A stretch of 33,143 bases of DNA from Akkermansia sp. (GCA_024405455.1 JAKSOT010000014.1:1-33143), one strand, 5' to 3'. Shown: positions 3,001 to 18,840, counted from the first letter of the stretch. Numbers and translations are program-made. The notes: generated by a model not told the origin, from the letters alone.

Positions 3001-4201
3001 GTCCGGCTTCCAGGTGACTGACCGCGAGTTCGGCTACTACGACACGGAGGGGAACTTCTCCGTCGATGGCAACGGCTACGCCGGCTTCTCGGCCAGCTAC
3101 ATCACCATCGTGAATGGTGGCAGTGTCAATGCCGACGAGATTACGGTGACCCAAGAAGGAACCGTGTATACCATGAACAACAGCGGCAGAGCGCTGGCGG
3201 ATGACGACGAGGTTCAGCACGAAACCTACTTCGTGAGGACCGATATGGTGGACATCTCCGCCATTCAGGCCGATGGACAAGCCTCCAAGGTCGAGGTGGC
3301 GGGCGGCACGCTGAATGTTGACCAGTCCACGGACCTTGACATCACCGTGACCGGTGAGGCCACCGTGACGGGTGAGGCTCTGGATGTCGCGGGAGTGGGT
3401 ATTGCGAATGAGGCCACGGCCAGCTTCGGCGATACGCTTGAAATGAGCGACGACGGAGTTGTGTTCCAGGCTGCCGAGGGTGAAAGCGTCAGCGTCTACA
3501 ACGGCGGGGAAACCGCAGCCTACGACCTGACAAATCAGAACTTGGTGGTGACCGCACAGAGCATCGTGAAGACCACCGGTGAAGATGCCACCGTCTCCAA
3601 CTTGCTGAACGTTGACGAGATTGTCAACGTGCAGGGCAACAGGCTCACGCTCGACGGCTTGAGTGACGTCATGACGGTGAGCAAGATCACCGTCGGCCCG
3701 GACTCCGCCGTGGAGCTCCTCGACAACCAAACGAGCGAGGAAATCACGGTCACCGTCTCGGAAGAGCTGGCTGCCGGCAACGGCACGCTGCTCGCCAACC
3801 TGGTGATGGACAACGACTCCGCCCTGCTCGTTAACGGCGTGGAGAAGGCCCTGCACGTGGGCAGCACGCTCACCATGGGCTCGAATATCGCGCTGGACGG
3901 CACCACGCTCCAGGCGCTGGACGGCTTGGCTGTCGGCGACTACTTCTGGCTGATCGATGCCGCGGAAGGCCGTGAGCTTGTCTACGAGGGCCCGACCGGC
4001 GACGACGCCTGGTACGACAGCGTGTTCTCCCGCTTTGCCTCTGATGGCGACTACGAGCTGGAGGGCGACTTCAACATCGTGTTCAGCGAGACCGACGGCT
4101 TCGGCCTGAAGAAGTTCAGCAACACGCCGGAACCCACCACGGGCACGCTGAGCTTGCTTGCGCTTGCCGCCCTGGCGGCAAGGCGCCGCAAGCACAACTA
4201 A
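2..4201 (+). CDS. Giant PEP-CTERM repeat surface protein, 5'-truncated by window edge
   Basis: The reading frame is open from base 2, so the true start and signal peptide lie upstream; about 1399 codons are visible. The protein is rich in Gly, Thr, Ser, Asn and Val with short beta-strand repeats (for example stretches like SLTVAGGTTSVSG), as in right-handed beta-helix passengers. The C-terminus is a PEP-CTERM sorting signal: PEP at 4127-4135, a short hydrophobic segment (LSLLALAALAA), then RRRK before the TAA stop. By family knowledge such proteins are exported, processed at the PEP motif by an exosortase and retained at the cell surface; an exosortase gene is at 21736. It carries three copies of a ~90-residue module (about 611-890, 1841-2099, 2981-3250) and one larger module (about 2353-2800) also found in the next gene. 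No catalytic domain was recognised; adhesion or surface-layer function is inference. Confidence 0.85.
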   Translation, partial: ANTLSIGEGGTFKVIGSHDAFGYNAGATKAIVMEGTEDAHATLALEQNSTNSVTMTTNIALHGYSHITVKDGGNGFNTYGCSITVDGVENTIAVIDLRNAVSINVGKGELSVGKFTRNGTSTAAVTKTGAGIMTIEEASTLPGALNINEGTVAIKADTTVAGLNIATTGSLTVAGGTTSVSGSTNVIGNVIELEAGTLSLAGAYDINSLSSSSEPRYIGGDGIGEGSGFKEASGVVQVVNITDGATLTQVEGVTFTYGADSGTLNEQGAFELSGAVDYTTLYVNNAEPVSYTSAWDLAQGQGEEISSVVLADGTAINADMEGASIALSLTGATGTVNATEATTIGSVSGWSGNKLIITGEADVSLMPGRDIVIGAGSSLEVGTAVAAQKIQLNGDGANLTVAAEGELSLSNNLTLTNGVADVYGTLNVGHEVDLSNGNKATGTLHIHGGGEVTVKDGMWMAPSAAGVLLDENATYAITGKGVSFTGKNGGGSIVAQKSEVNYTANNANAAISNVTMTATADITIGNTLSDVDVYTGEHAVSLNAAADSVTVGTEGSISFGTSGSTSSITVEDGGAIGSYTKTNEGETTITSVGTAILADTINLQTGKITMTGKYDIDSLDGDVEITGYDGGAVDGNGFAHETGTVQVVAITEGATLDATEGTFMRGGSELTLTDGATTVDGTNYAGFYINSGEETLTQAKSEETAHGPLSFIYVKDGGTLQVDDDMDGELVYGEGTGIVHIQEDNTVTGAMEGVTLAGKGTYDLGSTASLGTDTTLGQDWMGVVSLSNLTKADGNSAWINGLAQGDSWVEFSNFTGYDRAWASTFVPAVTANIILTDDGEHAAWNLTSFASSTYTMVISGDVKGDGTFKTSGGTAAQSQAIEFRGDISKWEGAFEANANGMRRVVFTGDASTVNASITKAGAGALNLVVGNGSDPFDAVFHEEVSVTSVEVKANASATFMGQLTTSTVTNAGTVEFNALSGLTQAITNSDTVIFNQGFEVSGFQVTDREFGYYDTEGNFSVDGNGYAGFSASYITIVNGGSVNADEITVTQEGTVYTMNNSGRALADDDEVQHETYFVRTDMVDISAIQADGQASKVEVAGGTLNVDQSTDLDITVTGEATVTGEALDVAGVGIANEATASFGDTLEMSDDGVVFQAAEGESVSVYNGGETAAYDLTNQNLVVTAQSIVKTTGEDATVSNLLNVDEIVNVQGNRLTLDGLSDVMTVSKITVGPDSAVELLDNQTSEEITVTVSEELAAGNGTLLANLVMDNDSALLVNGVEKALHVGSTLTMGSNIALDGTTLQALDGLAVGDYFWLIDAAEGRELVYEGPTGDDAWYDSVFSRFASDGDYELEGDFNIVFSETDGFGLKKFSNTPEPTTGTLSLLALAALAARRRKHN
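2353..2800 (+). repeat. Shared ~150-residue passenger module, copy in PEP-CTERM protein
   Basis: The encoded segment contains FTGYDRAWAS, AAWNL, FAS(S/T)TYTMV, GDGTF, QSQA and GMRRV in order. The same series is encoded at about 7300-7750 in the autotransporter, with near-identical stretches at DNA level (for example GACCGCGCGTGGGCCAGC in both). This indicates a duplication or exchange between the two neighbouring genes. Confidence 0.85.
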
Positions 4202-4255
4202 TTTACAATTTACGATTTACAATTGACGATTTTGTAAGTTAGGTGCCTTCGGCAC
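4201..4255 (+). repeat. Composite repeat copy 1: heptamer array plus small hairpin
   Basis: Four 7-base units (ATTTACA, ATTTACG, ATTTACA, ATTGACG) occupy 4201-4228. The first base is the final A of the upstream TAA stop codon. They are followed by ATTTTGTAAGTTAGG and a hairpin GTGCC-TTC-GGCAC (4243-4255). Similar elements are at 15622 and 18783 and, inverted, at 4348. Confidence 0.8.
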
Positions 4256-4264
4256 AAGATTACC

Positions 4265-4297
4265 AAGGCCCGTCTGGCATGCTGCCAGACGGGCCTT
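4265..4297 (+). terminator. Hairpin terminator after the PEP-CTERM gene
   Basis: A perfect 15-bp stem (4265-4279 with 4283-4297) and a TGC loop lie 64 bp past the stop codon. The stem ends in TT followed by CTGTT, so the U-tract is weak. Its strength and position support transcription termination; the symmetry means it could work in either direction. Confidence 0.7.
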
Positions 4298-4347
4298 CTG
4301 TTACCAACCCCGCCCCACACCGCGCCCACAGGCGCGGCTGTTTGCTC

Positions 4348-4399
4348 CGCACGCTGCGCGTGCGCGAATTTCCCACTTTGTACATTGTACATTGTACAT
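4348..4399 (-). repeat. Composite repeat copy 2, inverted
   Basis: On the plus strand this reads hairpin CGCACGC-TGC-GCGTGCG (4348-4364), then CGAATTTCCCAC, then three exact TGTACAT heptamers (4379-4399). Read on the minus strand it is heptamer array (ATGTACA x3), then GGAAATTCGCGC, then hairpin, the same order as the copy at 18783, where GAAAATTCGCGC joins array and hairpin. The shared junction and the same 7-base period argue for one family. Confidence 0.6.
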
Positions 4400-4406
4400 T
4401 TTTCTC

Positions 4407-4423
4407 AACGCGCCGCGTTTTTT
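4407..4423 (+). terminator. Short intrinsic-terminator-like hairpin
   Basis: A 5-bp stem AACGC/GCGTT with a GCC loop is followed directly by T residues (4420-4423). It sits just before the autotransporter promoter and could insulate it from upstream transcription. The stem is short, so this is tentative. Confidence 0.35.
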
Positions 4424-4426
4424 GGC

Positions 4427-4454
4427 TTGCGGCGCGGGGGGAAAGTGGTACAAT
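4427..4454 (+). promoter_or_regulatory. Putative sigma-70-type promoter of the autotransporter gene
   Basis: TTGCGG (4427-4432) and TACAAT (4449-4454) are separated by 16 bp, leaving a leader of about 60 bases before the ATG at 4523. The same box sequences and spacing (TTGCAG-16-TACAAT) precede the ClC gene on the minus strand. The -35 box overlaps one arm of an inverted repeat (4429-4435). Identified by eye only. Confidence 0.5.
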
Positions 4455-4522
4455 TCCTTTGAATATGGCGGGAGTACTGTACCCCGCGCACTTCTCCACA
4501 ATAAATCAACAATACATCCGAT

Positions 4523-7500
4523 ATGAAATTACACCTCCCCAAGGGACTTCGCGCGGCGCTCATCGCCGCTATCACCGCGTTTGGCTTCACCCTGCCGCAG
4601 ACGTACGCGGCCACCGTTGACACAACGATGACGACCACGTTCAGCAACTGCGCGCAGTCGGACGCACTGAGCGTGGGCACAGCGAACGCGTTCGGCAATA
4701 CCGACGTGCTCAACCCGCCGAGCTCAAGCATCACCGCCCTGTACGAGACGGGCACGAGCAACACGGTCGGTTTGCAGACGGGAGGCGCGGCCGGTCCCGT
4801 GGCCGATTTCCTGACGCCGAACACCAACGTGGGCAACGACCACCCGTGGACAATGGAGATGAGCTACACCGGAGCAGAATCGGTGCAGAGCATCACGGGC
4901 ATGACCCTTTCCGTGGGCCTGTTCAACGCGAGCGGCGCGTGGCAGGGCAGCGGCGCCACCTGGACGGGTGACGTAACCTTCACCGCCACCATTACGGCGG
5001 GAGGTCAGACCGCCACGTACACGGGGCTTCTCTTCAACGGATCCGGCGGCGGACACGGCCAGGGCGACACGAAGTTTGCCGTGACCCTGAGCGGCGACAC
5101 CATCGACCTGAGCGACGTTTCCGAATACACGCTCAAGCTGGAACTGACCGAGACCCTGCAATCCGGCACGTTCGTGGGCCTGCAGAACATCGGCTACAAC
5201 GTGGTGGCGAGCTTGCCTGAGATTGGGGAGTACACCTGGGAGGGAACCTCCGGGGAGCACGCATGGAGCGCTGCCGTGTGGAATGACGGCGAGTCCTCCG
5301 GGCAGAACTTCTCGGACGGATCCGATGCCATCTTCGGCGCCGCCGGACACAAGGAGGTGTCTATCACGAACTCCCCCACCGCACGCTTCATCAGCGTGAA
5401 CGCCGACGGCTACACCTTCAATGTGGAGGGAGGGCAAACGCTTTCCGGCAGGTCGCTCACCATAGCGGACGGCTGCACGCTGACCGTGACAGGCGAAGGC
5501 GCGCTGGACATCACCGAGCAGCTGGTGGGCACAGGCGCGCTGGCGCTGGGCAATTCCCTTTCCGCCACCGCGGGCTCGCTGGCCATTGCCTCTGGCAAGA
5601 CGTTCTCGGTGAGCGGTGAAAACGCGCTGCTCTCCGTGAACACCCTCACCAACGCGGGCACGCTGGGCATTGGCGAAGGCACGCGCGTGACCGTGAGCAA
5701 CAACATCTCCGTTGCCGGCGGCAGCACCTTCACCACCTCGGGCAGCGGCATGCTGGCGGTCAACACCTTCGCCGTTTCCGGCGGCACGGTCACCATCGGC
5801 TCCAACCTGAAGGTGACGGGCGGCGAACCCGGCACAGGGGCCACCGCCCGCAAGCAGGGTCTCTACATCACCAACGCGGCTTCCGATGTGAAGCTGCTCG
5901 GCACGCTCACGAACATCACCGGCGCCATGTACGCGAATGCGGGCACCGTGACCGTGGGCGACGGCACGCACGCCGCCCGCGTGGAAACCAACCGCATTGA
6001 GTTCGGCGATTCCCAGGGCGGAGAGGTTTCCTCCCTGAACATCATGAAGGAGGCCACGGTGCACGTGAAGGGCGCGGACAGCACGGATTTCGGCACCACG
6101 GGCCTGCTGTTGGGCGAGTGGGCCGCCTCCTCGGAGGCCAACATCCACGGCAAGCTCTACGGCGACAACACCACCGCCTACGTGGGCGACATGCAGGCGA
6201 CCATCAACATTGAGGACGGCGGCGTGATGGCCGTCAAGGGCATCGGCATCACCGCCAACAAGGGCGGCAAGAGCCAGATCCTCATCGTGAACCTGAACGA
6301 TGGCGGCAAGCTGGTGCTCGGCGAGAATGGTATGACTAGTGAGAAGCCGCTCACCGCCACCTTCGGCGATGCCGAGGTGGGTGTTTCCGCCTCCAGCGTG
6401 GAGATTGGCGCGGCCATCACCCTGAACGGCACCACCGGAACCACCTTCAACACCGCCATGTACACCTGGACGGGTCAGGACGACACCCTGGAGCTGGCGG
6501 CGGGCGAGGAAGCAGCCACTCTCACCGTGAGCGGCAACATCACCGGCGGCGGCACCATCATCAAGACCGGCGACGGCACGCTGATGCTCGCCGGTGACAA
6601 CAACGCCCTCACCCACACCATCAACCTGCAGAAGGGCACGCTTGACGTCACCACCGCCGTGCTGGACATTTCCAACATGGGCGGCATCACCGTCAAGGAA
6701 TACTCCGACGGCAAAATCTCCGGCAACGGCTTTGCCACCATGGGCGGCACCGTGGATGTGGTGGCCGTGGGCGACGGCACCACCCTCTCCCATGAGGGCG
6801 TGCAGGTGACGTTCAACGGAACGGATGTCACCATGGACGACAACGGTGACGTGACGCTGGAGGACATGAAGTCCCTGACCACGTTCTACGTGAACGTCGA
6901 CGGCTCGACGGAGAGCCTGGCCAACGCCGTGACCAAGGGCGGCGGCGAGCTCACCACCGTGAACCTGGCCAACAACACCAAGCTGGCGGCAGACCAGGCG
7001 GCAGACCTGGGAACCCTGGTGGTGCGCGCGGATGCCTCCGCGGATGTGGAGCTTTCCAAGGATGTGGCGTTTGACACCCTCACCGTCACCACCAAGGACG
7101 AGGTGCTGACCCTCACCGGCGCGGGCACGCTGTCCGCGGGTGTGCTGAACGGCCCCGGCACCATCTCCATCGGCGACGACGCGGTGCTGTCCGTCACCAC
7201 TGCCACGGTGGGCACCGCCAAGCCGGTTGTCACGGGTGGCGGCACGCTCGCCGTCACCAACGGCACCCTGACCGCAGAGCTGGCCGAGGCCTGGACCGGC
7301 ACCGTGCGCGTGGCCGACACCACGAGGCAGGACGGCAACAATGCCTGGATCGACACGCTCGCAAACGAAAACTCCCTGGTGGAGTTCATCCACTTCACGG
7401 GATACGACCGCGCGTGGGCCAGCTCCTATGTGTCGGAGATTGCCGCCGACATCAAGCTGACGAGCGACGGCACCAACGCCGCCTGGAACCTGTCCGCTTT

Positions 7501-10500
7501 CGCATCCACCACCTACACCATGGTGCTCACGGGCGACTGGCAGGGCGACGGCACGTTCCTGATGGCCGGCGGCAGCGCCGGGCAGTCCCAGGCCGTGGAA
7601 TACAAGGGCGACATCACCAACTGGACCGGCTCCATCGAGGCGAACGCCCCCGGCATGCGCAGGGTCACCTTCTCTGAGAACGCCACCAATGTGAACGTCT
7701 CCCTGGTGCACAACGGCAGCGGCGCGTTCGAGCTGGTGGTCAACAACGCCGCCACCTTCTCCAAGGCGGTGGACGTCTCCAAGCTCACCGTTGAGGCTGG
7801 GAAGTCCGCCACCTTCCAGGCCGACACCACCGTGGGTCAGCTGGCGGGTTCCGGCTCCATCGTGAAGACCGGAACGGACACCACCATGACCGTGACCGCA
7901 GCCGCCGGCACCGGCACGGCTGTCACGGCGCTGGATATCTCCGTGAACGAAGGCACGCTCAAGGCCACCGCCGCGGGAGCGCTGGGCAGCGGGCCCATCA
8001 CCGTGGCAACCGGTGCCGTGCTCGACCTGGTGAACGGCGGCGCCCTCGGCACCCTGCAGACCGTCACCAACAGCGGCAACGTCATCATCCACAGCACGCT
8101 CACCAGCGGCACCGTGAACGGCGGTGTGCTCACGCTGGCTGACGACTTCGCCGTGGACGGCGACCTTGTGGACGTGGAGGACAGCGACACCGGCAACGGC
8201 TTCAGCCAGGGCGGCGTGATGCACGTCTACGACACCGATCACGCTGAGCTCACCGGAATCACCGACATTGTCCACGGCGAGACCCACTACACGCTCGAGG
8301 ATGTGAACCCGGACGGCGACATCAGCATGAGCGGCGCGGACTGGACCACCTACCAGCTCAACGGCGAGGCCCAGTACGCCGTGCAGGCCATCATGGACTA
8401 CGCCGCGGAGCACTCCGGCACGCTGGCGCACATCATGGTGAACGCCGACGGCCTCGAGCTGACCAACGACAGCACCACGCTCAAGACCTCCATGCTGGGC
8501 GGCGAGCACCTGGCCACCTTCTCTGTGTACATGAGCGGCACCTCCAACCTGACTATAGACAGCGACTGCGCTGTCGACATTGGCACGAGCGCCGGAGCCA
8601 ACGCAACACTCACTCTGGAGAAGGATGCCACGGTGGGAGACGTGGCAGCCGCGGACCAGGATAACATGGAGGCCGTGCAGCTCACCATCAAGGGCAAGGG
8701 GCACACGCTGAAGATAGACGGCCTGGGCGTGGCTTTCGACGGCACGCTCACGATCGACGAGGGCGTGAAGGTGGAGATGGCGCCGCAAGCAGCCTTCTCC
8801 ACTATCGGCAATGCCACCATGGAGCTGAAGGAAGGCTCCTCCCTGGCGCTTGGCGAGGTCACCTTCGCCACCGTGGACGGCGGCACGGAGGCCTCCATCG
8901 TGGTGACCTCCGATGAGCCCCTGCCGATGTACAACCCCGCGTTCGCGGAGTACAGCGTCACCGGAATGCGCATCACCTTCGACACCACGGCCGCCTACAA
9001 CCTGGGCCACGTGATTGACGCCACCAGCCAGATTGTGAACGCCGGAACCGGCTCGCTCAACGATGTCTCCTCCAATGCGGAGTACGCCGAGCTGAACGCT
9101 CAGGGCGGCAACATCTACATCTCCACGCCGGTGGACTCCGGCACGGACACGCGCGAGCTGAAGGTGGGCAACCTGACGCTGGCCGCCGGCCGCACGGTGG
9201 GCGAGGACACGGGCAAGGCCGTTATCATCACCGTGACCGGCGAGGCGAGCTTCGGCAGCGGCTCCACCGTGAGCAGCGCGCTCACCATGGCGGGCGGCTC
9301 CACGCTGGATGCAGACGGACCCGTCGCCCTGGGCACCAACGCGCTCTCGCTGGAAGACGGCATCAACATCTCCGACGACCTGTGGAGCACCCTGAGCGGC
9401 TTGACGTCCCTGGAGAGCACGAACCTGTTCACGGGCGTGAGCGCGCTCACGCTCGCGGGCGAGGAGTTCACAGAGGAAGTGGACCTGAACTCCATCTTCG
9501 ACCACGCCAGCCTGAAGGACAGGAAGTTCAAGCTCGGCTACAAGGACGGCAACGTCATCGTCACCAAGCTGGCGGACAACAACCGCTACTGGCAGGGCGG
9601 GGACGGCAACTGGGACTACACCGCCACCGTGTGGACGAATGACGACGGCGAGCCCGCCACGTTCTCCAGCGGCTACAACGCCTACTTCGCCAGCACCAGC
9701 GGCGGCACCGTCACCTTGGGCACCGACATCACAGCCGACAGCATCACCGTCTCCGGCGCGGACTACATCTTCGCGCCCGGCGGCCACACCCTCACGGTGA
9801 ACCAGTTTGTGGAGGCGGACGGCCACAAGGCCACCTTCAACATGGCCCTGAGCGGCGCCGGGCTGAAGCTGGTTGCCAAGAACGGCGGCACCATCACCCT
9901 GCAACAAGACAGCAGCGTGAAGGATGTGCAAGTCGGCGCGGACGGCATCATCAGAACCTCGGGAACCCTGACCGTGACCGACGGCTTCACGAACACCGGC
10001 AAGCTGGTGCAAGCGGACACGCTCACCATCCAGAAGGGCACTGCGGCGGGCGGCAATGTCACCGCGGTCACGACGCTGAACCTCACCAGCGGCCAGTCCT
10101 ACACCTTCGGCAACCTGACTGCCGGCACCATCAGCGGCACCGGAGCCAACCTGACGATAGGCTCGGCGAACACGCTGGCGGTGAGCAACAACTCCACCGT
10201 GGCGGGCCTGACCCTGGGCGATAATGCCACCGTGGCGGGAACCGGCACCCTGAACACCGCCGGCGTGACGCTGCAGGGCGATGCCACCGTGAGCGGCAAG
10301 CTGACCACCGGCACGCTCGCCGGCTCGGACAGCACGCTGAAAATCAATGGCGGCACGCTTACGGCCTCCTTGCTGGGCAGCGAAGTCAACCTGGCCACCA
10401 GCGGCACCTCCACCATCGCCTCCGCCGGCCTCAAGCTCGTCTTGAACGGCACCGTGGACAACACCGCCACCGGCACGGTGACCTTCGTGGGCAGTTTCGA

Positions 10501-13500
10501 TGTGGGCAACTGCACCACCATTGACGGCACCGCCACCTACGTGGGAGGCGACAGCACCGCCAACGGCTTCAAGCAGGCCCAGAAGATTGTCTCCGTCATC
10601 GACGAGGGCACGGCCAACGGCGAGGGTGCCACGCTCACCTACAACGGCACGTCCATCGGCCAGATGGGCACCAACGGCAAGGTGACCTTCCAGGGTGACA
10701 CGGAGTACGACAAGTTCTACGTGAACAGCGGCTCCGAAAAGGCCAGCAAGGCGCTGGAAAACCCCGACCAGAACCTCGGCACCTTCGAGCTGGCCGCGGG
10801 TACCACGCTGGTGGTTGACACGAACATCTCCATGGGTATGGTGAACACCGCAGGTGCCGCCAACATGCAGATTGACGCGGGCAGCACCGTGACCACGGAC
10901 GGCACCGCCAAGAACCTGACGCTCACAGGCGCCGGCACGCTGGAGGTGGATGAAGGCAAGACCTCCACGGGCGTGACGCTGGGCGGCACATGGGCCGGCA
11001 CGGTCTCCTTCACCGAGGCCCAGCTCACCACGCTTGGCGGCTCTTGGAAGTCCGGCTCCACCGTGAGCCTCACCGGCGTCACGGGCAGCCTGGGCAGCGA
11101 CCTCATTGAAGGCAAGGTGGTCCTGAACAAGGGCACGGGCGACTGGGGATTCGGCCAGACCGAAACCTCCGGCACCCAGTACACGAACCTGGAAAACACC
11201 CTGACCGGTGACGGCAACCTGGGCGTGAAGAGCGGCAGCGTGGACAGCACCTTCAACCTGAACGGCAACATCGACGGCTGGACCGGCAACTTCATCGTGG
11301 CCACCGATGCCGACACCGATTTGAACCTCGGCGGCAGCGGCACCAAGACCGTGCACGGCACCGTGAGCGGTTCCAACCTGGCGGTGAACGTGAACGCCGA
11401 CACCACCTTCGAGAGCGCGCTGAACGTTGCCGAAATCAACGTGAACGACTCCAAGACGGCCACCCTGAAGTCCGCCAGCACCGCAGACCGGGTGAATGCC
11501 TATAGCGGCTCCCTGAAGGTGGACAACGGCACGACGCTGACCGTGACCGGCTTCACGGGTCCCGAGGGTCTCAAGCTGGGTGCGGGAGCTTCCATCGTGC
11601 TGCAGGGCACCGCCTACATGGGCGGTGAGGATTACGGCTACGTGGGCGGCACCGTTGCGAACAGTGAAGATACCGACCAGGCCGTGAAGAATGACAACGC
11701 CAACATCACCGTGACGGGCACCACGCTGCGCGTGAACGGCGGCTCGGGCTTCACCGTGGACAACATGCTGGTGAACGCCACGCTCGCCGTAAAGAACGGC
11801 CTGCCGTCCACCGTGACCCTGAACAACGTGCAGGATTCCCTGGAGGTTGCGGGCAACCTGGAAATCGGTCCCGAAGGCTTGCTCAAGGTGGCCCAGAACA
11901 ACGGCACCGCCAAGCAGACGCTGAACATCAGCGGCGGCACCACGCTGACGCTGGCCAACGACACCACGCTTGACGCAGACCTGACGCTCAACCGCGGCGC
12001 GACCCTGAGGCTGGACTACAACATGGGCACGCCTGTGGCAACGACGCTCAACGGCGGCGGACTGACGCTCTACAAGGGGCTGACGCTTTCCGGCGACCTG
12101 TACGAGACGCTGAAGGGGCTCTCCACGGAGGGCGAATCCGTGACGCTGTTCAGCAACGTGGGCACGGTTGTGTTCGACGGTGCCACAACCACCACCGTGG
12201 ATGCCAGCACCTACTTCACCAACCTGCTGGACCTGGAGGGCGACTACACGTTCAACTACGGTGACGGCCTGCTGTCCATCGTGTACTCGGAATCCTCCTC
12301 CCGCCAGCTGGTGTGGAACGGCACGGAAACCGAGCACCGCTGGGTGGCGTACGAGCCTGAGGCCATCGACCCGGAGGTGAAGGACTGGTACCAGCCGAGC
12401 ACCGGGCAGGGGACCTACTTCGCCAACGGCGACACCGCCACCTTCGGCTCCGCTGCGGAAACCAAGATGGTGAACCTCTCCGCCGGGGAAACCGTTGCCA
12501 AGATGGTGACGCTCAAGGAATCCGCGGACTACGAGTTCGTGGCCGACGAGGCGGGCAGCAAGCTGAGCGCCACACGCTTCGAGGTGAAGGAGGGCGCCAC
12601 GCTGAACAAGTCCGGTGCCGGCACGCTCATCCTGGAGGTCGGCGAGAATGTCACCGTGGACGCCGCGGGCCTTTTCGTGGACGAGGGCGAACTCGTCATC
12701 GGCACGGCGGAAATGCCCGGCACCCTGGCGCTTGACAACGGCGTCATGGAGGTGGCGGAGGACGCCACGCTGCGTGTGGCCAAGATTCAGGACAGCGAAG
12801 GCTCCACCATTGCGGTGTGCGGCACGCTCAACGTGGCTTCCGGCAGCCTCCACGCCATCCACGCGCTTGAACGCAGCACGCTGGTGATTTCCAACGTGAA
12901 CGGCGTTGCCGCCGGCACGCTCTCCATCGACTCCGACACCACGCTCCACGGCTTGGAGAACCACGGCACGCTGGACGTCGGCACGCACAGCCTCACGCTC
13001 ACGGAGGCCGCCGCACAGGGCGGCAACGTGACCGCGGGCGTCCTCAACCTCGCGCAGAACGGCAACGCCTTCGGCAACCTCAAGGTCAACACCATCCACT
13101 ACGCCTACGGCACGCTGGATGTGGCCGACCCGAATGTGACCGTGGACACCATCACCGCCAACGGCGGATTCCCGGTGATCACGCTCGACCTGGCGGACAC
13201 CATGGGCGCCGGCGGCTCGCTGGCACCCACGCAGCGCACGGGCGAGGCGACGACCTACACGCTCATCCATGCGGACGGCCAGACGCTGAGCACCTCCAAC
13301 TTCATGCTGGGCGGCAACACGCTGGCCCTGCTGGTGCAGAACGGCCTCATCCACGAGGGCGCGGGCCTGGAGACGGACGGCAGCAACATCACGCTCACCG
13401 TCGGCGGACAGGATGTCACCTGGAACACCGACAAGGACGTGACCGAATGGGGCTACACCGTGGTTTCCAACGACCGCATCACCGCCGGCGGCAACACGTT

Positions 13501-15622
13501 CAACGGCGTGGAGCACCTGGTGGTGGACGCCTCCCGCAGGATTGACGTGACCGGTGCCGGTTCCGAACCCGGCCTGCGTGTGCGCAACATCACCGGCCTG
13601 GACGGCCGCACCATCACCTTCACCGGCACGGAGGACGACACCGTCAACCTCGTCACCAACGAGGAGACCGCCAGCAACGTCAACGTCGCCGCGGAGAACA
13701 TCACCCTCAAGGTGGGCCTGGACGAGCTGGACGAGATGGATCCCGTGGACTACAAGGACCTGCGCGTGGGCAATGTGAACCTCACCAGTGCCACGCTGGA
13801 CGTGCATGACCACGAGGGCCTGGACGACGCCTTCACCGTGAACTCCCTGAACGGCGACTCCGGCTCCGTGCTGAAGGGCACGCTTATCGTGGAGGGCCAG
13901 GGCGGCGCCTACAACGGCGGATACGGGGACGCCAAGGTCATCCTGCATAAGGCCGCCGACCAGACGCTGGCCGCCGACAGAGGGCTCACCGTGATGGGGC
14001 TCGGCCTGGCACGCATCACCTACAGCGGAACCGAGACCCACATGGACGGCATCGAGGGCATCGGCCTGAGCGTCATGCTCAATGACGCGGGCACCGACAA
14101 CTCGCACAGGACGCTCACGCTCGACAACGAGTACTCCTACATCGTGAACGGCGCCTTGGGTGTGGGCCTTTCCGCCATCGAGAGCGGGCTCACGCTGGAT
14201 TCCGCGGAGGCACCGGTTCTCCTGCAGGCCAAGCACCTGGATATGAGCGGTTCCAGGCTCTACATCTACCAGGCCGGTGACGAGGGCACGCTGGTGATGG
14301 ACGTGAACGACGGCGGCTACAAGCGCGGCCTGCTGCTCGCCCGTGTGGGCGCAGAGGACACCACCGCGGAAACCGTGCAGCTGGTGGGCAACCTGTTCTT
14401 CAAGTACTACCAGAACCCCCGCCTGGAGAACGGCAGGGTGCTGGTGGACCGCCGCACGGACTACTTCACCCGCGTCACCGAGCCCACGTCCGAGAACGGA
14501 CAGGCCGGTGCCGGCATGCTGGATGACGCCCTGCTGTACAACAACCCGCAGCGGACCCAGCAGGGCGGCGACCTCGCCACCGTGATGACCGAGCTGGAGC
14601 AGGGAGGCTATTCCCATGCCCATGCCGACAAGGTGATGGCCGCCATGAGCGGTGCCTCCCAGGCCGCCATGGGCGCCGCCTGGAACCGCGACGTGGACCG
14701 CCAGCTGCGCGCCATCCGCAACCGCACCACCCAGATGGGCCTTGCGGAGTGCACGCACCATGAGGGCCTGCCCTACTTCAACGCCTGGATCAACGCCGAG
14801 GGCGACTACGCCAAGCTCAGCGCGGACGGCACGCTCGCCGGGTACAAGCTCACCAGCTGGGGCGGCACCCTCGGCGTGGATGTGGACTTCACCAGCCGCT
14901 TCACCATGGGTGTGGCCGTCACCGCCATGAGCGGCGACTTCACGGCCAACTCCGCAGAGTCCGCCCAGGGCGACCTGGACCGCCTGTACGTGTCGGTCTT
15001 CGGCCGCTACACGCGCCGCGCGTGGACCCACACGTTCGTGGCCACCCTGGGCATGGCGGACACCAAGCTGAAGCGCACGGTGGACTACGGCTACGGCAGC
15101 TACAACACCGACTCGTCCACGGACGGCAAGGCGTTCGGCCTCATGTACGAGGTGGGCTACGTGACCGCTCTCAACGAGGATTCCTCCACCTGCCTGCAGC
15201 CGGTGCTCAACCTGAGCTACCGCCACAGCTCGCTGGACGGCTGCGGTGAGCACAGCGCCAGCGACGCCGCGCTCCGTCTGGGCAACGCCGATGCCAACGT
15301 GTTCACCGCGGCCATCGGCGCCCGCCTGCAGAGCGCCGTGGGAACCAGCGTGTACAACCGCACCTCCATCTTCGAGGGTCGCGTGATGCTGAAGTTCGAC
15401 ACGGGCGACCGCGATGTCGCCGCCAACAACTCCTTTGTTGGCGTGCCGGGCGGCCGCGATGCCAAGAGCACGGAAGCCGGCTTGTTCGGCGTGGAGGTGG
15501 GCGCAGGCCTGACCATCCCGCTGAGCGAGAACGCCGGTGCCATCTTCTTCGATGTCTCGGGCGACTTCCGCGCCAAGGACACCGAGGTGAACGGAACCGT
15601 GGGATACCGATACAACTTCTAA
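4523..15622 (+). CDS. Giant autotransporter (3699 aa) with beta-barrel C-terminus
   Basis: The ATG at 4523 begins a classical signal peptide: MKLHLPKGLR, a hydrophobic stretch, then a likely cleavage after QTYA near residue 29. The passenger (to about residue 3300) is a Gly/Thr/Ser/Asn-rich series of short beta-strand repeats, consistent with a beta-helix. Three W-rich restart modules (about 5230, 9583 and 12301, e.g. RYWQGGDGNWDYTATVW) divide it into units. The C-terminus, from about residue 3418 (YFNAWINAEGDYAKL) to the terminal YRYNF, has alternating strands, several YxV/FxV strand motifs and a terminal Phe, as expected for an autotransporter beta-barrel inserted by the Bam machinery. A helical linker (WNRDVDRQLRAIRNR) precedes it, typical of the segment that plugs the pore. 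It shares modules with the upstream PEP-CTERM protein but has no PEP motif. No protease or other enzyme motif was seen in the passenger. No Shine-Dalgarno is visible. Confidence 0.92.
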   Translation: MKLHLPKGLRAALIAAITAFGFTLPQTYAATVDTTMTTTFSNCAQSDALSVGTANAFGNTDVLNPPSSSITALYETGTSNTVGLQTGGAAGPVADFLTPNTNVGNDHPWTMEMSYTGAESVQSITGMTLSVGLFNASGAWQGSGATWTGDVTFTATITAGGQTATYTGLLFNGSGGGHGQGDTKFAVTLSGDTIDLSDVSEYTLKLELTETLQSGTFVGLQNIGYNVVASLPEIGEYTWEGTSGEHAWSAAVWNDGESSGQNFSDGSDAIFGAAGHKEVSITNSPTARFISVNADGYTFNVEGGQTLSGRSLTIADGCTLTVTGEGALDITEQLVGTGALALGNSLSATAGSLAIASGKTFSVSGENALLSVNTLTNAGTLGIGEGTRVTVSNNISVAGGSTFTTSGSGMLAVNTFAVSGGTVTIGSNLKVTGGEPGTGATARKQGLYITNAASDVKLLGTLTNITGAMYANAGTVTVGDGTHAARVETNRIEFGDSQGGEVSSLNIMKEATVHVKGADSTDFGTTGLLLGEWAASSEANIHGKLYGDNTTAYVGDMQATINIEDGGVMAVKGIGITANKGGKSQILIVNLNDGGKLVLGENGMTSEKPLTATFGDAEVGVSASSVEIGAAITLNGTTGTTFNTAMYTWTGQDDTLELAAGEEAATLTVSGNITGGGTIIKTGDGTLMLAGDNNALTHTINLQKGTLDVTTAVLDISNMGGITVKEYSDGKISGNGFATMGGTVDVVAVGDGTTLSHEGVQVTFNGTDVTMDDNGDVTLEDMKSLTTFYVNVDGSTESLANAVTKGGGELTTVNLANNTKLAADQAADLGTLVVRADASADVELSKDVAFDTLTVTTKDEVLTLTGAGTLSAGVLNGPGTISIGDDAVLSVTTATVGTAKPVVTGGGTLAVTNGTLTAELAEAWTGTVRVADTTRQDGNNAWIDTLANENSLVEFIHFTGYDRAWASSYVSEIAADIKLTSDGTNAAWNLSAFASTTYTMVLTGDWQGDGTFLMAGGSAGQSQAVEYKGDITNWTGSIEANAPGMRRVTFSENATNVNVSLVHNGSGAFELVVNNAATFSKAVDVSKLTVEAGKSATFQADTTVGQLAGSGSIVKTGTDTTMTVTAAAGTGTAVTALDISVNEGTLKATAAGALGSGPITVATGAVLDLVNGGALGTLQTVTNSGNVIIHSTLTSGTVNGGVLTLADDFAVDGDLVDVEDSDTGNGFSQGGVMHVYDTDHAELTGITDIVHGETHYTLEDVNPDGDISMSGADWTTYQLNGEAQYAVQAIMDYAAEHSGTLAHIMVNADGLELTNDSTTLKTSMLGGEHLATFSVYMSGTSNLTIDSDCAVDIGTSAGANATLTLEKDATVGDVAAADQDNMEAVQLTIKGKGHTLKIDGLGVAFDGTLTIDEGVKVEMAPQAAFSTIGNATMELKEGSSLALGEVTFATVDGGTEASIVVTSDEPLPMYNPAFAEYSVTGMRITFDTTAAYNLGHVIDATSQIVNAGTGSLNDVSSNAEYAELNAQGGNIYISTPVDSGTDTRELKVGNLTLAAGRTVGEDTGKAVIITVTGEASFGSGSTVSSALTMAGGSTLDADGPVALGTNALSLEDGINISDDLWSTLSGLTSLESTNLFTGVSALTLAGEEFTEEVDLNSIFDHASLKDRKFKLGYKDGNVIVTKLADNNRYWQGGDGNWDYTATVWTNDDGEPATFSSGYNAYFASTSGGTVTLGTDITADSITVSGADYIFAPGGHTLTVNQFVEADGHKATFNMALSGAGLKLVAKNGGTITLQQDSSVKDVQVGADGIIRTSGTLTVTDGFTNTGKLVQADTLTIQKGTAAGGNVTAVTTLNLTSGQSYTFGNLTAGTISGTGANLTIGSANTLAVSNNSTVAGLTLGDNATVAGTGTLNTAGVTLQGDATVSGKLTTGTLAGSDSTLKINGGTLTASLLGSEVNLATSGTSTIASAGLKLVLNGTVDNTATGTVTFVGSFDVGNCTTIDGTATYVGGDSTANGFKQAQKIVSVIDEGTANGEGATLTYNGTSIGQMGTNGKVTFQGDTEYDKFYVNSGSEKASKALENPDQNLGTFELAAGTTLVVDTNISMGMVNTAGAANMQIDAGSTVTTDGTAKNLTLTGAGTLEVDEGKTSTGVTLGGTWAGTVSFTEAQLTTLGGSWKSGSTVSLTGVTGSLGSDLIEGKVVLNKGTGDWGFGQTETSGTQYTNLENTLTGDGNLGVKSGSVDSTFNLNGNIDGWTGNFIVATDADTDLNLGGSGTKTVHGTVSGSNLAVNVNADTTFESALNVAEINVNDSKTATLKSASTADRVNAYSGSLKVDNGTTLTVTGFTGPEGLKLGAGASIVLQGTAYMGGEDYGYVGGTVANSEDTDQAVKNDNANITVTGTTLRVNGGSGFTVDNMLVNATLAVKNGLPSTVTLNNVQDSLEVAGNLEIGPEGLLKVAQNNGTAKQTLNISGGTTLTLANDTTLDADLTLNRGATLRLDYNMGTPVATTLNGGGLTLYKGLTLSGDLYETLKGLSTEGESVTLFSNVGTVVFDGATTTTVDASTYFTNLLDLEGDYTFNYGDGLLSIVYSESSSRQLVWNGTETEHRWVAYEPEAIDPEVKDWYQPSTGQGTYFANGDTATFGSAAETKMVNLSAGETVAKMVTLKESADYEFVADEAGSKLSATRFEVKEGATLNKSGAGTLILEVGENVTVDAAGLFVDEGELVIGTAEMPGTLALDNGVMEVAEDATLRVAKIQDSEGSTIAVCGTLNVASGSLHAIHALERSTLVISNVNGVAAGTLSIDSDTTLHGLENHGTLDVGTHSLTLTEAAAQGGNVTAGVLNLAQNGNAFGNLKVNTIHYAYGTLDVADPNVTVDTITANGGFPVITLDLADTMGAGGSLAPTQRTGEATTYTLIHADGQTLSTSNFMLGGNTLALLVQNGLIHEGAGLETDGSNITLTVGGQDVTWNTDKDVTEWGYTVVSNDRITAGGNTFNGVEHLVVDASRRIDVTGAGSEPGLRVRNITGLDGRTITFTGTEDDTVNLVTNEETASNVNVAAENITLKVGLDELDEMDPVDYKDLRVGNVNLTSATLDVHDHEGLDDAFTVNSLNGDSGSVLKGTLIVEGQGGAYNGGYGDAKVILHKAADQTLAADRGLTVMGLGLARITYSGTETHMDGIEGIGLSVMLNDAGTDNSHRTLTLDNEYSYIVNGALGVGLSAIESGLTLDSAEAPVLLQAKHLDMSGSRLYIYQAGDEGTLVMDVNDGGYKRGLLLARVGAEDTTAETVQLVGNLFFKYYQNPRLENGRVLVDRRTDYFTRVTEPTSENGQAGAGMLDDALLYNNPQRTQQGGDLATVMTELEQGGYSHAHADKVMAAMSGASQAAMGAAWNRDVDRQLRAIRNRTTQMGLAECTHHEGLPYFNAWINAEGDYAKLSADGTLAGYKLTSWGGTLGVDVDFTSRFTMGVAVTAMSGDFTANSAESAQGDLDRLYVSVFGRYTRRAWTHTFVATLGMADTKLKRTVDYGYGSYNTDSSTDGKAFGLMYEVGYVTALNEDSSTCLQPVLNLSYRHSSLDGCGEHSASDAALRLGNADANVFTAAIGARLQSAVGTSVYNRTSIFEGRVMLKFDTGDRDVAANNSFVGVPGGRDAKSTEAGLFGVEVGAGLTIPLSENAGAIFFDVSGDFRAKDTEVNGTVGYRYNF
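7300..7750 (+). repeat. Shared ~150-residue passenger module, copy in autotransporter
   Basis: This is the counterpart of 2353-2800, with FTGYDRAWAS, AAWNL, FASTTYTMV, GDGTF, QSQA and GMRRV in the same order. A more distant third version is encoded at about 10978-11460 (W-G-T-V, then GDGNL, then GNIDGWTGNF). Confidence 0.85.
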
Positions 15623-15683
15623 TTTACAATTGACAATTTACGATTGACGATTTTGTAAGTTAGGCGGCTTCGCCGCGAATTTC
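15622..15683 (+). repeat. Composite repeat copy 3: heptamer array, hairpin, GAATTTC box
   Basis: ATTTACA, ATTGACA, ATTTACG and ATTGACG occupy 15622-15649, again starting on the last A of the TAA stop. The next 15 bases (ATTTTGTAAGTTAGG) are identical to copy 1. A hairpin GCGGC-TTC-GCCGC (15664-15676) and GAATTTC (15677-15683) follow. Confidence 0.8.
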
Positions 15684-15717
15684 AAAGCCCCGTTCGGCTG
15701 GTGCCGGACGGGGCTTT
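15684..15717 (+). terminator. Hairpin terminator between convergent genes
   Basis: A 15-bp stem with one G-T wobble (15684-15698 with 15703-15717) and a TGGT loop is followed by CTTAATCTT. It lies between the autotransporter and the convergent small secreted-protein gene and could serve both directions; the T-run is short on each side. Confidence 0.7.
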
Positions 15718-15747
15718 CTTAATCTTAATCCTAATCTTAATCCTAAT
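15718..15747. repeat. Tandem hexamer array (CYTAAT x5)
   Basis: Five consecutive 6-base units read CTTAAT, CTTAAT, CCTAAT, CTTAAT and CCTAAT. The array ends 4 bases before the stop codon (15752-15754) of the minus-strand gene. It is AT-rich against a GC-rich background, and its period differs from the heptamer arrays. Confidence 0.85.
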
Positions 15748-15751
15748 TCAG

Positions 15752-16117
15752 CTACAGGGTGCGCTTGTAGGAGCCGTCGATGCCGTATATCTCCACGCGG
15801 CCGTTCTGCTTGGTGAGAGCCACGGTGTCGCCGCTGAGTTGGACGCCCACCACATCGCCGGAACCGATGGTGCGCATGTAGGAGCCGCCGCGGCTGTAGA
15901 GCTCCACGCGGCCGTTTTGGCGCAGCAGCGCCACCTCCCGGCCATTGGTGGAGGCCTGCACCACATCGTTGGAGCCGAGGGTGCGAACGTAGCTGCCGGA
16001 GACGGTGTACACCTCCGCGCGCCCGTTGTTGAGCTTCACCAGGACGGGCTCGTCGTTCCCCGCAAGGGCGAACGAGGAAAGGCAGGCCAGCGCGAGTATG
16101 GTACGGAATATTTTCAT
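15752..16117 (-). CDS. Small secreted three-repeat protein, 121 aa
   Basis: The ATG at 16117 is chosen because it starts a clean signal peptide (MKIFRTILALACLSSFALA, cleavage before GNDEP). In-frame codons further upstream would run into the divergent promoter region and give no signal peptide. The mature part is about two and a half copies of a ~37-residue repeat whose core reads NGR-(A/V)-E-(V/L/I)-Y, then GSY-x-RT(L/I), then GS-(N/D)-DVV. Such blade-like beta repeats resemble single beta-propeller blades, but too few are present for a propeller in one chain. It is divergent from the GH110 gene with 103 bp between starts. I do not recognise the family; a secreted or periplasmic location is inferred from the signal peptide. 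Confidence 0.75.
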   Translation of the reverse strand: MKIFRTILALACLSSFALAGNDEPVLVKLNNGRAEVYTVSGSYVRTLGSNDVVQASTNGREVALLRQNGRVELYSRGGSYMRTIGSGDVVGVQLSGDTVALTKQNGRVEIYGIDGSYKRTL

Positions 16118-16127
16118 GATGGAGTAT

Positions 16128-16155
16128 TCTTTACCGCAGAGGCGCGCCAAGGCAA
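16128..16155 (-). promoter_or_regulatory. Putative promoter of the small secreted-protein gene
   Basis: On the minus strand TTGCCT (16155-16150) and TAAAGA (16133-16128) are 16 bp apart, so transcription would begin only a few bases before the ATG at 16117. The match is moderate; found by eye. Confidence 0.35.
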
Positions 16156-16184
16156 GCCTTTTCTTTAGGGCGGGGCAAATTCGT

Positions 16185-16213
16185 TTGACGCGCGGGTGGG
16201 GTGCAGGTAGAAT
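16185..16213 (+). promoter_or_regulatory. Putative strong promoter of the GH110-map unit
   Basis: TTGACG (16185-16190) and TAGAAT (16208-16213) are separated by 17 bp. A start about 7 bases after the -10 box falls at or next to the ATG at 16221, implying a leaderless or near-leaderless message. The alternative in-frame ATG at 16212 would lie inside the -10 box, which argues for 16221. Confidence 0.6.
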
Positions 16214-16220
16214 GGGTGAC

Positions 16221-17975
16221 ATGGATAAGATTGCGCTTTCTGCGGTTTTGCTGGGGATTGGGCTGCCGTTGGGTGCGGCGACCTATTGCGTGGATCCCGT
16301 GAACGGGAACGATGCCGCCAAGGGCGACGAGGCGGCGCCGTGGAAGACCTACGCCCCGGTGAACAAGCTGGAGCTGCAGCCGGGAGACGTGGTGGTGACC
16401 AGCCCCGGCAGGATCGTGACCACGCTGGCCCCCAAGGGCAGCGGCAGCTCGGAAAAGCCCATCCGGCTCGTCTTCAAGCCGGGACGCTACGAGTGGCAGG
16501 CCGCCACGCTGGACGGCCGCAAGCTCATGCTCTCCAACACGAACGACCGCCCGGACGACGAGAAGAAGCTGGGCATCGAGCTGGCGGGCGTGCAGCACTA
16601 CCGGCTGGAGGGCAACGGGGCGGACATGATCTGCATCGGCAAGATGATCATGGTGCATTTCGAGAACAGCCACCACATCATCGTGAAGGACATGAGCTGG
16701 GACTACGCGCGCCCCACCGTCTCCGAGTACACCGCCGTGAGCGTGGGCGAGAAGGAGGCCGTGTTCACCATCCACCCGGACAGCCGCTACCGCGTGCAGG
16801 ACGGCAAGCTCACCTGGGTGGGCGACGGCTGGGAGCTGCCCGCGGACATCCATGTGCAGCAGATGGTGCGCGAGCCGCGGCTGGAGGTGTGGCGCGGAGG
16901 CCCCACGCTGGCCCAGGGCACGGTGGAGGAGATTGAGCCCAACAAGGTGCGCGTCACCTACGACCAGAACCCCGGCTACCGCGTGGGCACCACCTACCAG
17001 GCCCGCAGCACCGTGCGCGAGTGCGCCGGCATGTTCGCCGACCACAGCAGCGACATCCACTACCACAACGTGCACCTCTATTTCGTGCACGGCATGGGCT
17101 TCCTCTCCCAGATGAGCAAGGACATCTTCTTCCAGGACATCTCCGTGGCCCCGCGGGAGGGCAGCGGGCGCACCTGCTCCGCGTGGGTGGACATGCTGCA
17201 CTTCTCCGGCGTGGGCGGCGATATCCGGGTTGAGAAATTCTTCTTCTCCGGCGCGCACGATGACGCCATCAACGTGCACGGCATCCACATGCGCATTGTG
17301 AAAATCCTGGACCCCACGCATGTGCGCATGCGCTTCATGGAATGCCAGACCTGGGGATTCCCCGCCTACCATGCGGGGGACGAGGTGGACATCATCGACG
17401 CCGAGAGCATGCTGCCGCGCGGCACCACCAAGGTGGTGGCGGCCAGGATGCTGGAGGACCCGCACGAGATGGAGCTGGAGCTGGCGGACCCGCTGCCGGA
17501 GGGCACGGTGGAGAACTCCGATGCGCTGGAGAACGTGACGTACACGGCCTCCCTCACCGTGAACGACGGCGATGTGCAGCTCATCCCCACCCGCGGCTTC
17601 CTCATCACCACGCGCAAGCCCGTGCGGGTGACCCAGGTCCGCTTCCTCAACACCCACATGCACGCCATCCTCGTCTCCGATGACGCCAGCGGTTGGTACG
17701 AGTCCGGCATGGTGCGCGACCTCACCATCCTCAACTGCGTGTTCGACCACTGCGCGGAGCCCGTCATCAACATCCTGCCGGAGAACAGGGTGCACAAGGG
17801 CGCCGTGCACAGCGGCATCAAGATTGTCGACAACACGTTCAACCTCAGGGGCGACAACGCCCTCAACCTCAAGTCCGCCAAGGACGTCGTCATTCTCCGC
17901 AACGCGTTCGACAAACCCGGAACCGCACAGGACTTCACCACCCAAAAGGACACCGAAAACGTCCGGTTCAAATAA
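16221..17975 (+). CDS. GH110 family alpha-1,3-galactosidase, secreted
   Basis: Predicted to remove terminal alpha-1,3-linked galactose, as on blood-group B type glycans, in the periplasm or outside the cell. The 584-residue length, N-terminal signal peptide (MDKIALSAVLLGIGLPLGAA) and right-handed beta-helix character fit family GH110. The most telling motif is HDDAINVHG, with Asp347 and Asp348, in the expected catalytic region; other segments (NSHHIIVKDMSWDYARP, DHSSDIHYHNVHLYF) also fit. No lipobox is seen. The start at 16221 is preferred over 16212 because of the promoter position. It is followed after 13 bp by map, so the two are probably co-transcribed, an odd pairing of a glycan enzyme with a housekeeping peptidase. 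Subfamily A or B cannot be told from the sequence by eye; another beta-helix glycosidase is the alternative. Confidence 0.8.
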   Translation: MDKIALSAVLLGIGLPLGAATYCVDPVNGNDAAKGDEAAPWKTYAPVNKLELQPGDVVVTSPGRIVTTLAPKGSGSSEKPIRLVFKPGRYEWQAATLDGRKLMLSNTNDRPDDEKKLGIELAGVQHYRLEGNGADMICIGKMIMVHFENSHHIIVKDMSWDYARPTVSEYTAVSVGEKEAVFTIHPDSRYRVQDGKLTWVGDGWELPADIHVQQMVREPRLEVWRGGPTLAQGTVEEIEPNKVRVTYDQNPGYRVGTTYQARSTVRECAGMFADHSSDIHYHNVHLYFVHGMGFLSQMSKDIFFQDISVAPREGSGRTCSAWVDMLHFSGVGGDIRVEKFFFSGAHDDAINVHGIHMRIVKILDPTHVRMRFMECQTWGFPAYHAGDEVDIIDAESMLPRGTTKVVAARMLEDPHEMELELADPLPEGTVENSDALENVTYTASLTVNDGDVQLIPTRGFLITTRKPVRVTQVRFLNTHMHAILVSDDASGWYESGMVRDLTILNCVFDHCAEPVINILPENRVHKGAVHSGIKIVDNTFNLRGDNALNLKSAKDVVILRNAFDKPGTAQDFTTQKDTENVRFK

Positions 17976-17988
17976 ACCATCCACCACC

Positions 17989-18783
17989 ATGAGCGACCGC
18001 ATCAACGTCCGCAACCCCAATGAAATCTCCAAGCTGCGCAAGGCGGGGGAGGTTTCCGCACGCATCCTGATGGACCTCATGCCCATCATCAAACCCGGCA
18101 TCACCACCAAGGAGATAGACGACTACGCCGCCGAGCTCTTCAAGCGCGAGGGCTGCGGCAACGCCTTCCTCGGCTACGGCGGATACCCCGGCCAGCTCTG
18201 CATCTCCGTCAACGAGGTGGTGGTCCACGGCATCGGCGACAACCGCGTCATCCACGACGGCGACATCGTGAGCCTGGACGCCGGAGCCATCGTGGACGGC
18301 TGGTACGGCGACAACGCCATGACCGTGCCCGTGGGCAACGTGCGCGAGGAGGCGCTGCGCCTGCTGGCGGTGACGGAGGAGGCGCTCTTCCGCGGCATCG
18401 AGCAGGCGAAGCAGGGCAACCCGCTCAGCGAGGTCTGCGGCGCCATCGAGGACTTTGTAAAGCCGTTCGGGTTCGGCATTGTGCGGGACTACGTGGGGCA
18501 CGGCGTGGGACGCCACCTGCACGAGGACCCGTCCATCCCGAACTACCGCCCGAACTATCCCCTGCCCCGCCTCAAGCGCGGCATGATACTCGCCATCGAG
18601 CCCATGATTACCCTCGGCACCTACCGCGTGAAGGTGCTGGACGACGACTGGACCGCCGTGACCACGGACGGCTCCTGGGCCGCGCACTTCGAACACACCG
18701 TGGCCGTCGGCTCGCACGGCGGCGACATCCTCACGGAACGCCCCCGCATTGCCCTGCCGGAACAGCTGGGAATCATGCTGTAA
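17989..18783 (+). CDS. map: Methionine aminopeptidase, type I
   Basis: Removes the initiator methionine from nascent proteins in the cytoplasm using two divalent metal ions. The ATG at 17989 gives 264 residues, the usual size of bacterial type I enzymes. The expected residues are present: His80 (VVVHGIG), metal ligands Asp97 (SLDAG) and Asp108 (YGDNAMT), His171 (VGHGVGRHLHEDP), Glu204 (LAIEPM) and Glu235 (FEHTVAV). There is no N-terminal SEC-C zinc motif. It lies 13 bp after the GH110 stop codon and lacks a Shine-Dalgarno. The frame stays open well upstream of 17989, but that extension overlaps the GH110 gene and has low-complexity composition, so it is rejected. The TAA stop abuts a composite repeat. 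Confidence 0.96.
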   Translation: MSDRINVRNPNEISKLRKAGEVSARILMDLMPIIKPGITTKEIDDYAAELFKREGCGNAFLGYGGYPGQLCISVNEVVVHGIGDNRVIHDGDIVSLDAGAIVDGWYGDNAMTVPVGNVREEALRLLAVTEEALFRGIEQAKQGNPLSEVCGAIEDFVKPFGFGIVRDYVGHGVGRHLHEDPSIPNYRPNYPLPRLKRGMILAIEPMITLGTYRVKVLDDDWTAVTTDGSWAAHFEHTVAVGSHGGDILTERPRIALPEQLGIML

Positions 18784-18840
18784 TTTACAATTGACAATTT
18801 ACGATTGACGATTTGAAAATTCGCGCATGCGGAGCATGCG
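18783..18840 (+). repeat. Composite repeat copy 4, between convergent genes
   Basis: ATTTACA, ATTGACA, ATTTACG and ATTGACG (18783-18810) are identical to copy 3 and again begin at the last A of a TAA stop. GAAAATTCGCG and a hairpin CGCATGC-GGA-GCATGCG (18824-18840) follow. Read on the minus strand, the hairpin is followed by CGAATTTTC, so it may act as the terminator of the convergent ClC gene. Confidence 0.8.

Follow-up and report, generated by a model that had tools for sequence, protein, structure and literature searches.

Short tandem heptamers are dispersed in the intergenic DNA of cyanobacteria such as Calothrix (short tandemly repeated repetitive, or STRR, sequences) and, to our knowledge, they have not been reported to form ends of a fixed four units with a hairpin attached. 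REPINs are short mobile units of another kind, built of two inverted modules that each carry a hairpin, and they need a RAYT transposase (Y1_Tnp). REPINs and REP sequences are treated together with their RAYT transposases in PMC3116915, and the Calothrix heptamers are mentioned in PMC4692102 (PLoS One 2015), which explains the heptamer repeats of Xanthomonas (GGGAATC) and Nostoc (GGGGA(C/T)T) as G-quadruplexes. TAACTGA heptamers of Beggiatoaceae, cyanobacteria and Bacteroidetes are direct repeats between genes that occur patchily among phyla, and some of them overlap stop codons; they lie mostly just 5' of start codons on the sense strand, and translational control has been proposed for them (PMC4679880). 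BrickBuilt of Porphyromonas gingivalis is a short, intergenic, non-coding miniature inverted-repeat transposable element (MITE) with an internal minisatellite (PMC4596501). Here, we describe arrays of the heptamer ATTKACR in a 33,143-nucleotide stretch of a metagenome-assembled genome (MAG) of Akkermansia sp. (GCA_024405455.1 JAKSOT010000014.1:1-33143; the window, contig 46 of the MAG) and throughout that genome, and we lean towards a reading in which they form the termini of short MITE-like mobile elements, a family without coding capacity.

The Akkermansia arrays resemble the Xanthomonas repeats (PMC4692102) in having four units, in their proximity to stop codons and antisense start codons, in forming convergent pairs and in the drift of their sequence at fixed loci. 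The properties of the Xanthomonas and Nostoc type are present, from the heptamer array and the four-unit preference to the convergent pairs, but the G-quadruplex tracts are absent: the Xanthomonas and Nostoc repeats are G-rich, whereas ATTKACR and the related AKKTACT units contain no run of three G. Since ATTKACR cannot form G-quadruplexes, the G-quadruplex reading cannot be the general explanation of four-unit heptamer arrays. A fixed linker with a GC hairpin, a two-ended element and the replacement of arrays in place are features of Akkermansia that the consulted sections of PMC4692102 do not give for Xanthomonas or Nostoc. Nor are the arrays of the TAACTGA type, having another unit and mostly following the end of a same-strand gene (52 of 71). 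BrickBuilt likewise combines tandem repeats with inverted-repeat ends, but its unit is 23 bp long and lies between a leader and a tail, and its 19 copies lie 49–591 nt from the nearest genes (PMC4596501). REPINs also consist of two inverted hairpin modules, but Y1_Tnp was not found in several array-rich genomes. The Akkermansia arrays are a variant of the scattered heptamer-repeat class, which has no accepted origin or function. Xanthomonas-type GGGANTC arrays were seen in viral contigs as well, one of them followed by 16 nt and a GC hairpin (L494), which is too little to use.

The genome that contains the window (2.35 Mb, 93.5% complete) holds 78 ATTKACR arrays of at least two units, against none for the reversed pattern; MAG assemblies probably break at heptamer repeats, so that copy numbers here and below are lower bounds. 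Many contigs of the assemblies G000 and G050 terminate in or beside arrays. Loci were read as stretches around nearly all arrays of the window's genome. Exactly four units are present in 62 of the 73 arrays with at least three exact units, and these 62 comprise 36 distinct sequences. Unit 1 is nearly always ATTTAC, T and G are about equally frequent at position 4 of units 2–4, position 7 holds either A or G with a preference that varies by unit, and the units within one array are mostly unlike each other at these two positions. The coupling to a hairpin that the initial annotation had noticed extends genome-wide: 42 of the 62 four-unit arrays are followed by a perfect stem of 5 bp or more, behind a linker of 14 nt (33/42) or 13 nt (4/42), and in most copies the GC hairpin starts 42 nt (6 × 7) from the array start, with variable stem and loop sequences. 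Behind 26 of 69 arrays there is a stem of 11 bp or longer, compared with one in shuffled sequence. Five convergent pairs are present, four of them with 109–111 bp between the arrays, and most copies are single (half) ends.

Two-ended copies are abundant in the relative G050, which has no ATTKACR arrays and 506 overlapping matches to the AKKTACW type. Its 150 copies of the terminal sequence ACAAAKGRGRATTTGTMG correspond to at least 75 near-identical two-ended copies with different flanks. A complete copy runs from the ACAAAKGRGRATTTGTMG terminus through four heptamers, a linker, a GC hairpin and a 14-bp terminator-like stem into the inverted counterparts, and in most of those read it is 164 bp long, measured array to array. 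The spacing between the arrays is 108 bp in most G050 copies versus 109–111 bp in most pairs of the window's genome, and the left and right linkers of G050 represent two classes (AAGTTAG/TTCG and AATAGAG) to which the linkers of the window's genome also belong. The same array-linker-hairpin module stands behind other outer sequences in other Akkermansia genomes (ACACGTGTCCCAAAGATTTGGGACACGTGG in G015 and G032; CATCATGNAGCATAAGCCNTTGGTT in G063, G068 and G069).

ATTKACR arrays occur in 37 of 76 Akkermansia genomes, and four Akkermansia-named contigs (L121, L132, L157 and L168) carry the same composite element. Pieces upstream of 37 loci of the window's genome were located in three close relatives and the loci were then compared. 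Eight loci have an array in all four genomes, and presence varies at the others. At L059 the element is present in the window's genome and in G051, whereas in G053 the stop codon is followed by the next start codon one base later and the site is also empty in G052. At map, the window's genome and G051 have the element, and it is absent from G053, G052 and every other relative whose map 3' end was covered in the sense direction; L038 is a further site with presence and absence. The junction between map and its array (marked by a slash) is TGAGG/ATTTAC in G051 versus TA/ATTTAC in the window's genome, and the G051 hairpin reads CGCACGC-TCC-GCGTGCG, a compensatory change in the stem with the loop inverted. 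Differences per site amount to 0.27 at positions 4 and 7, 0.018 at the other five and 0.17 at fourfold-degenerate sites of adjoining genes against G051, and to 0.24, 0.025 and 0.13 against G053, for arrays that were selected by pattern match in the window's genome, so that strongly changed or lost orthologs are uncounted.

Positions relative to genes were counted after removal of near-identical duplicates, with approximate gene calls from a hexamer model for which these contigs had served as training data, and 71 arrays of the window's genome could be placed; several of the genes are PEP-CTERM-like paralogs with a common 3' module, so that the copies are not all independent. A same-strand gene lies on the 5' side of 52, at exactly −1 in 24 of them, where the first A of the array is also the final base of a TAA or TGA, and within 16 nt in nearly all others. 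For the other 19 the 5' neighbor is on the opposite strand, and eight of these lie 3–16 nt from its start codon. The mean relative position of the array 5' end in the intergenic space is 0.04 (Kolmogorov–Smirnov p = 1.7e-42), and neither in this genome nor in G050 does an array lie within a called gene so as to break it. Because arrays adjoin both stop codons and antisense start codons, the rule is that the array 5' end stands against the edge of a coding sequence, stop codons being the commonest case. The initial annotation had seen the stop-codon registration at three genes, and it holds as a genome-wide preference with a spike at −1; its suggestion that TAA-TTT contexts are targeted is not supported, given that recent G050 copies are found anywhere between genes and that eight arrays adjoin antisense start codons. 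The stop codon as an insertion target was rejected on the evidence of G050, where 9 of 31 different outer ends fall between −8 and +20 relative to a same-strand stop, with the others farther away and none inside a gene. TAA makes up 39 of 65 stops with an array close by versus 105 of 283 in other genes, an excess that is partly due to the array itself supplying the final A. In relatives without the element the stop position is unchanged (L071, L061, L084, L069 and map), hence native gene ends were kept. The upstream base class (T(A/G) or G(A/G)) and the linker class (TTA or TTC) showed no link (Fisher p = 0.13).

Across phyla, at least 116 stretches have ATTKACR arrays of four or more units. 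Among the matches listed, a same-strand stop lies within 20 nt on the 5' side of 45 arrays and on the 3' side of 13, where open reading frame calls are crude and some negative distances are forced by the TGA inside ATTGAC units. The asymmetry between the 5' and 3' sides extends beyond Akkermansia and the −1 spike is limited to Akkermansia.

A mobile element, which was among the roles offered by the initial annotation, is the best fit of these. The elements are short, dispersed, multi-copy and too short for a transposase gene (164 bp in G050; 78 arrays in the window's genome), they have terminal inverted repeats in the form of inverted array, linker and hairpin ends (G050 and the five convergent pairs), and they are present or absent at orthologous sites (L059, L038 and map). 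In one end, four heptamers would lead through a 14-bp linker into a small GC hairpin, and a complete copy would have two such ends, inverted, around a terminator-like stem. The heptamers may be tandem binding sites for a protein acting on double-stranded DNA; the likeliest candidate is an enzyme that mobilises the element, and a host protein that adopted the sites is a possible one. Five conserved positions with free change at positions 4 (T/G) and 7 (A/G) would fit recognition by a protein. Insertions would survive between genes alone. Deletion in this lineage would have removed the DNA that separated gene and element, down to the last tolerable base, and, with an array that begins with A, the stop TA/A or TG/A would survive with nothing left between. 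The −1 spike could then arise because such deletion ends where the array's A completes T(A/G)A. Alternatively, the spike may reflect a genuine preference for the junction, or selection that favours a TAAT/TGAT context.

Several observations weigh against a mobile element. Seven G050 copies and the L059 insertion show no evident target-site duplication. Y1_Tnp has no match in G050, G063, G068, G069 and G070, with five matches in the window's genome; RVT_1 has none in the window's genome, G050–G053, G063 and G068–G070; and DDE_Tnp_1 has none in the window's genome, G050, G052, G053, G063 and G070, other transposase families not having been searched. Each being absent from array-rich genomes, a RAYT/IS200 transposase (Y1_Tnp), a reverse transcriptase and DDE_Tnp_1 were rejected as the mover. 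In the window's genome, copies are mostly single ends, many at the same site in relatives, like inherited host sequence. A whole array can be replaced between intact flanks, as at L069-, where ATTTACAATTGACGATTGACGATTTACA in the window's genome is ATGTACTAGGTACTAGGTACTATGTACT in G053 with identical hairpin and terminator, and a normal MITE does not behave in this way. Deletion alone would not obviously give a spike as sharp as that at −1, and the evidence for the deletion step itself is indirect, from loci such as map.

The strongest competitor is a host 3'-end element. A conserved 3' untranslated region and terminator module would here run from the stop codon through array and hairpin to the terminator, a host protein would bind the array, and copies would spread through gene-end duplication and conversion and not through transposition. 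This reading would account for the array 5' ends lying against gene ends, the strong stems behind 26 of 69 arrays, the many loci common across species with the same stop, the several PEP-CTERM-like paralogs with one 3' module, and the change below the fourfold rate at positions 1, 2, 3, 5 and 6. However, it is hard to reconcile with presence and absence at orthologous loci, with the numerous two-ended elements of recent origin in G050, whose flanks are unrelated, with arrays adjoining antisense start codons, and with the finding that the array co-folds with its own linker no better than with shuffled linkers, and we regard it as rather unlikely. The possibility raised initially that orthologous loci carry ordinary inherited 3' sequence is borne out to the extent that many loci are common to close relatives, and contradicted by others with clear presence or absence.

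An RNA hairpin formed by array and linker was also rejected: over 62 loci the two fold no better than shuffled pairs (118 of 200 shuffles did equally well), and the fold does not suffer when arrays are exchanged (149/200). The seemingly strong folds of 4199–4310 (z −7.2) and 15620–15725 (z −6.4) both take in the downstream stem.

A dedicated enzymatic system could instead write and rewrite four-unit arrays where they stand, at the ends of genes, using a template particular to the lineage; same-length arrays of different dialect would then replace one another at fixed sites with the flanking DNA untouched. At L069-, L070- and L075- the whole ATTKACR array is indeed exchanged for the AKKTACT or ATGTACA type with both flanks unchanged, the array length is the same whatever the heptamer type, and each species has its own dialect (for example, AKKTACT and no ATTKACR in G050). 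We nevertheless consider such a system improbable, given that the genomes concerned have no reverse transcriptase match, that mosaic arrays (ATTTACG AGGTACA ATTGACG ATTTACA in G051) also fit recombination or stepwise change, and that re-insertion or recombination with other strains could swap arrays. Polymerase slippage favouring 7-bp units, with arrays persisting where harmless, has been proposed for bacterial heptamers (cited in PMC4692102) and would suit the heptamer arrays of many sequences in many phyla and the long perfect ATTTACG arrays of some relatives (for example, G031), but it is very doubtful here, already weakened by the exactly four units of most arrays and further by the fixed 42-nt distance to the hairpin, the fixed spacing of inverted pairs and the differences between units of one array.

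At L042, L047-, L055, L072, L075 and L076, long perfect hairpins directly abut the array and contain the stop codon in their loop or stem. Their 3' arm is an inverted copy of the coding end, as also in G051 at the L059 locus, and they are absent where the element is absent (L059 and L042), which suggests fold-back copying during insertion. As a universal part of the element the outer flush hairpin was rejected, since it is missing in array-bearing orthologs (L075 in G051 and G053). The 3' module of stop, array, linker, hairpin and terminator recurs behind several PEP-CTERM-like paralogs (at 4201 of the window and at L046, L049, L050, L056, L068, L073, L082, L086 and L087); the 3' ends of these genes spread or were homogenised along with the element. 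A second small hairpin repeat, approximately CCGTCTTCGCC...GGCTACGCCGAGACAAG(C), is inserted inside heptamer arrays and GC hairpins (L051, L069, L086 and L066 in the window's genome; L392 and L393 in G050; L465 and L456 in G015/G032) and is possibly a separate, very small mobile element. Another repeat, ATCATTGCCATCCCATA(G/A)CGCTC...GAGCGC, is joined directly to short ATTKACR arrays at L032, L040, L043, L079, L086, L087 and L089 and looks like a further family carrying heptamers at its edge.

Within the window (Table 1), 12 two-unit matches with up to two mismatches were found versus 0.5 expected, and an Rfam search matched no described structured RNA family. The initial annotation had described three forward arrays of four ATTKACR units whose first A ends a TAA, 28-base arrays identical at 15622 and 18783, a linker common to 4201 and 15622 (ATTTTGTAAGTTAGG) and hairpins with 3-base loops, all of which we recovered. 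Its inverted copy is there too, with three ATGTACA units and a hairpin, but the junction GGGAAATTCGCG that it took to be the same is not fully identical and has AAATTCGCG in common with the third copy (GAAAATTCGCG). This inverted array and array 1 are probably the two ends of one element, with 150 bp between the arrays. Among the gene names, map is secure (TIGR00500 and Peptidase_M24); the PEP-CTERM label is weakly backed, by a tail visible in the sequence and a sub-threshold MYXO-CTERM match, and the supposed autotransporter of 3699 aa has no Pfam or NCBIfam match.

Table 1 Heptamer arrays, associated structures and adjoining features in the window
Feature	Position	Strand	Remarks
Heptamer array 1, ATTTACA ATTTACG ATTTACA ATTGACG	4201-4228	+	First A completes TAA of gene 2-4201
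14-nt linker ATTTTGTAAGTTAG	4229-4242	+	Length as in 33/42 genome copies
Hairpin GTGCC-TTC-GGCAC	4243-4255	+	
Central 15-bp stem AAGGCCCGTCTGGCA-TGC-TGCCAGACGGGCCTT	4265-4297	+	Position matches terminator-like core of two-ended element
Hairpin of inverted end, CGCACGC-TGC-GCGTGCG as read on +	4348-4364	-	
Inverted heptamer array, ATGTACA x3	4379-4399	-	
Heptamer array 2	15622-15649	+	First A completes TAA of 3699-aa gene (4523-15622)
Linker ATTTTGTAAGTTAG	15650-15663	+	
Hairpin GCGGC-TTC-GCCGC	15664-15676	+	
15-pair terminator-like stem-loop	15684-15717	+	3' of array 2
Hexamer repeat (YTAATC)n	15717-15749		Immediately after array 2 terminator; also behind elements at L037 and L042
Short protein with IceA2 (Helicobacter pylori) domain matches	15752-16150	-	Between array element 2 and next gene
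Heptamer array 3	18783-18810	+	Sequence as array 2; first A completes TAA of map (17989-18783)
13-nt linker ATTTGAAAATTCG and hairpin CGCATGC-GGA-GCATGCG	18811-18840	+	

For annotation, heptamer arrays matter in that they cause assembly breaks and mark gene ends. The system also offers handles, namely a mobile unit to follow in G050, a DNA probe for a binding protein and orthologous loci for timing the replacement of arrays. Heptamer repeats have been recorded in Xanthomonas, cyanobacteria, Beggiatoaceae and Bacteroidetes, and Akkermansia has the same architecture. Without the G-quadruplex as a general cause, the 7-bp period and the layout of the element come into focus.

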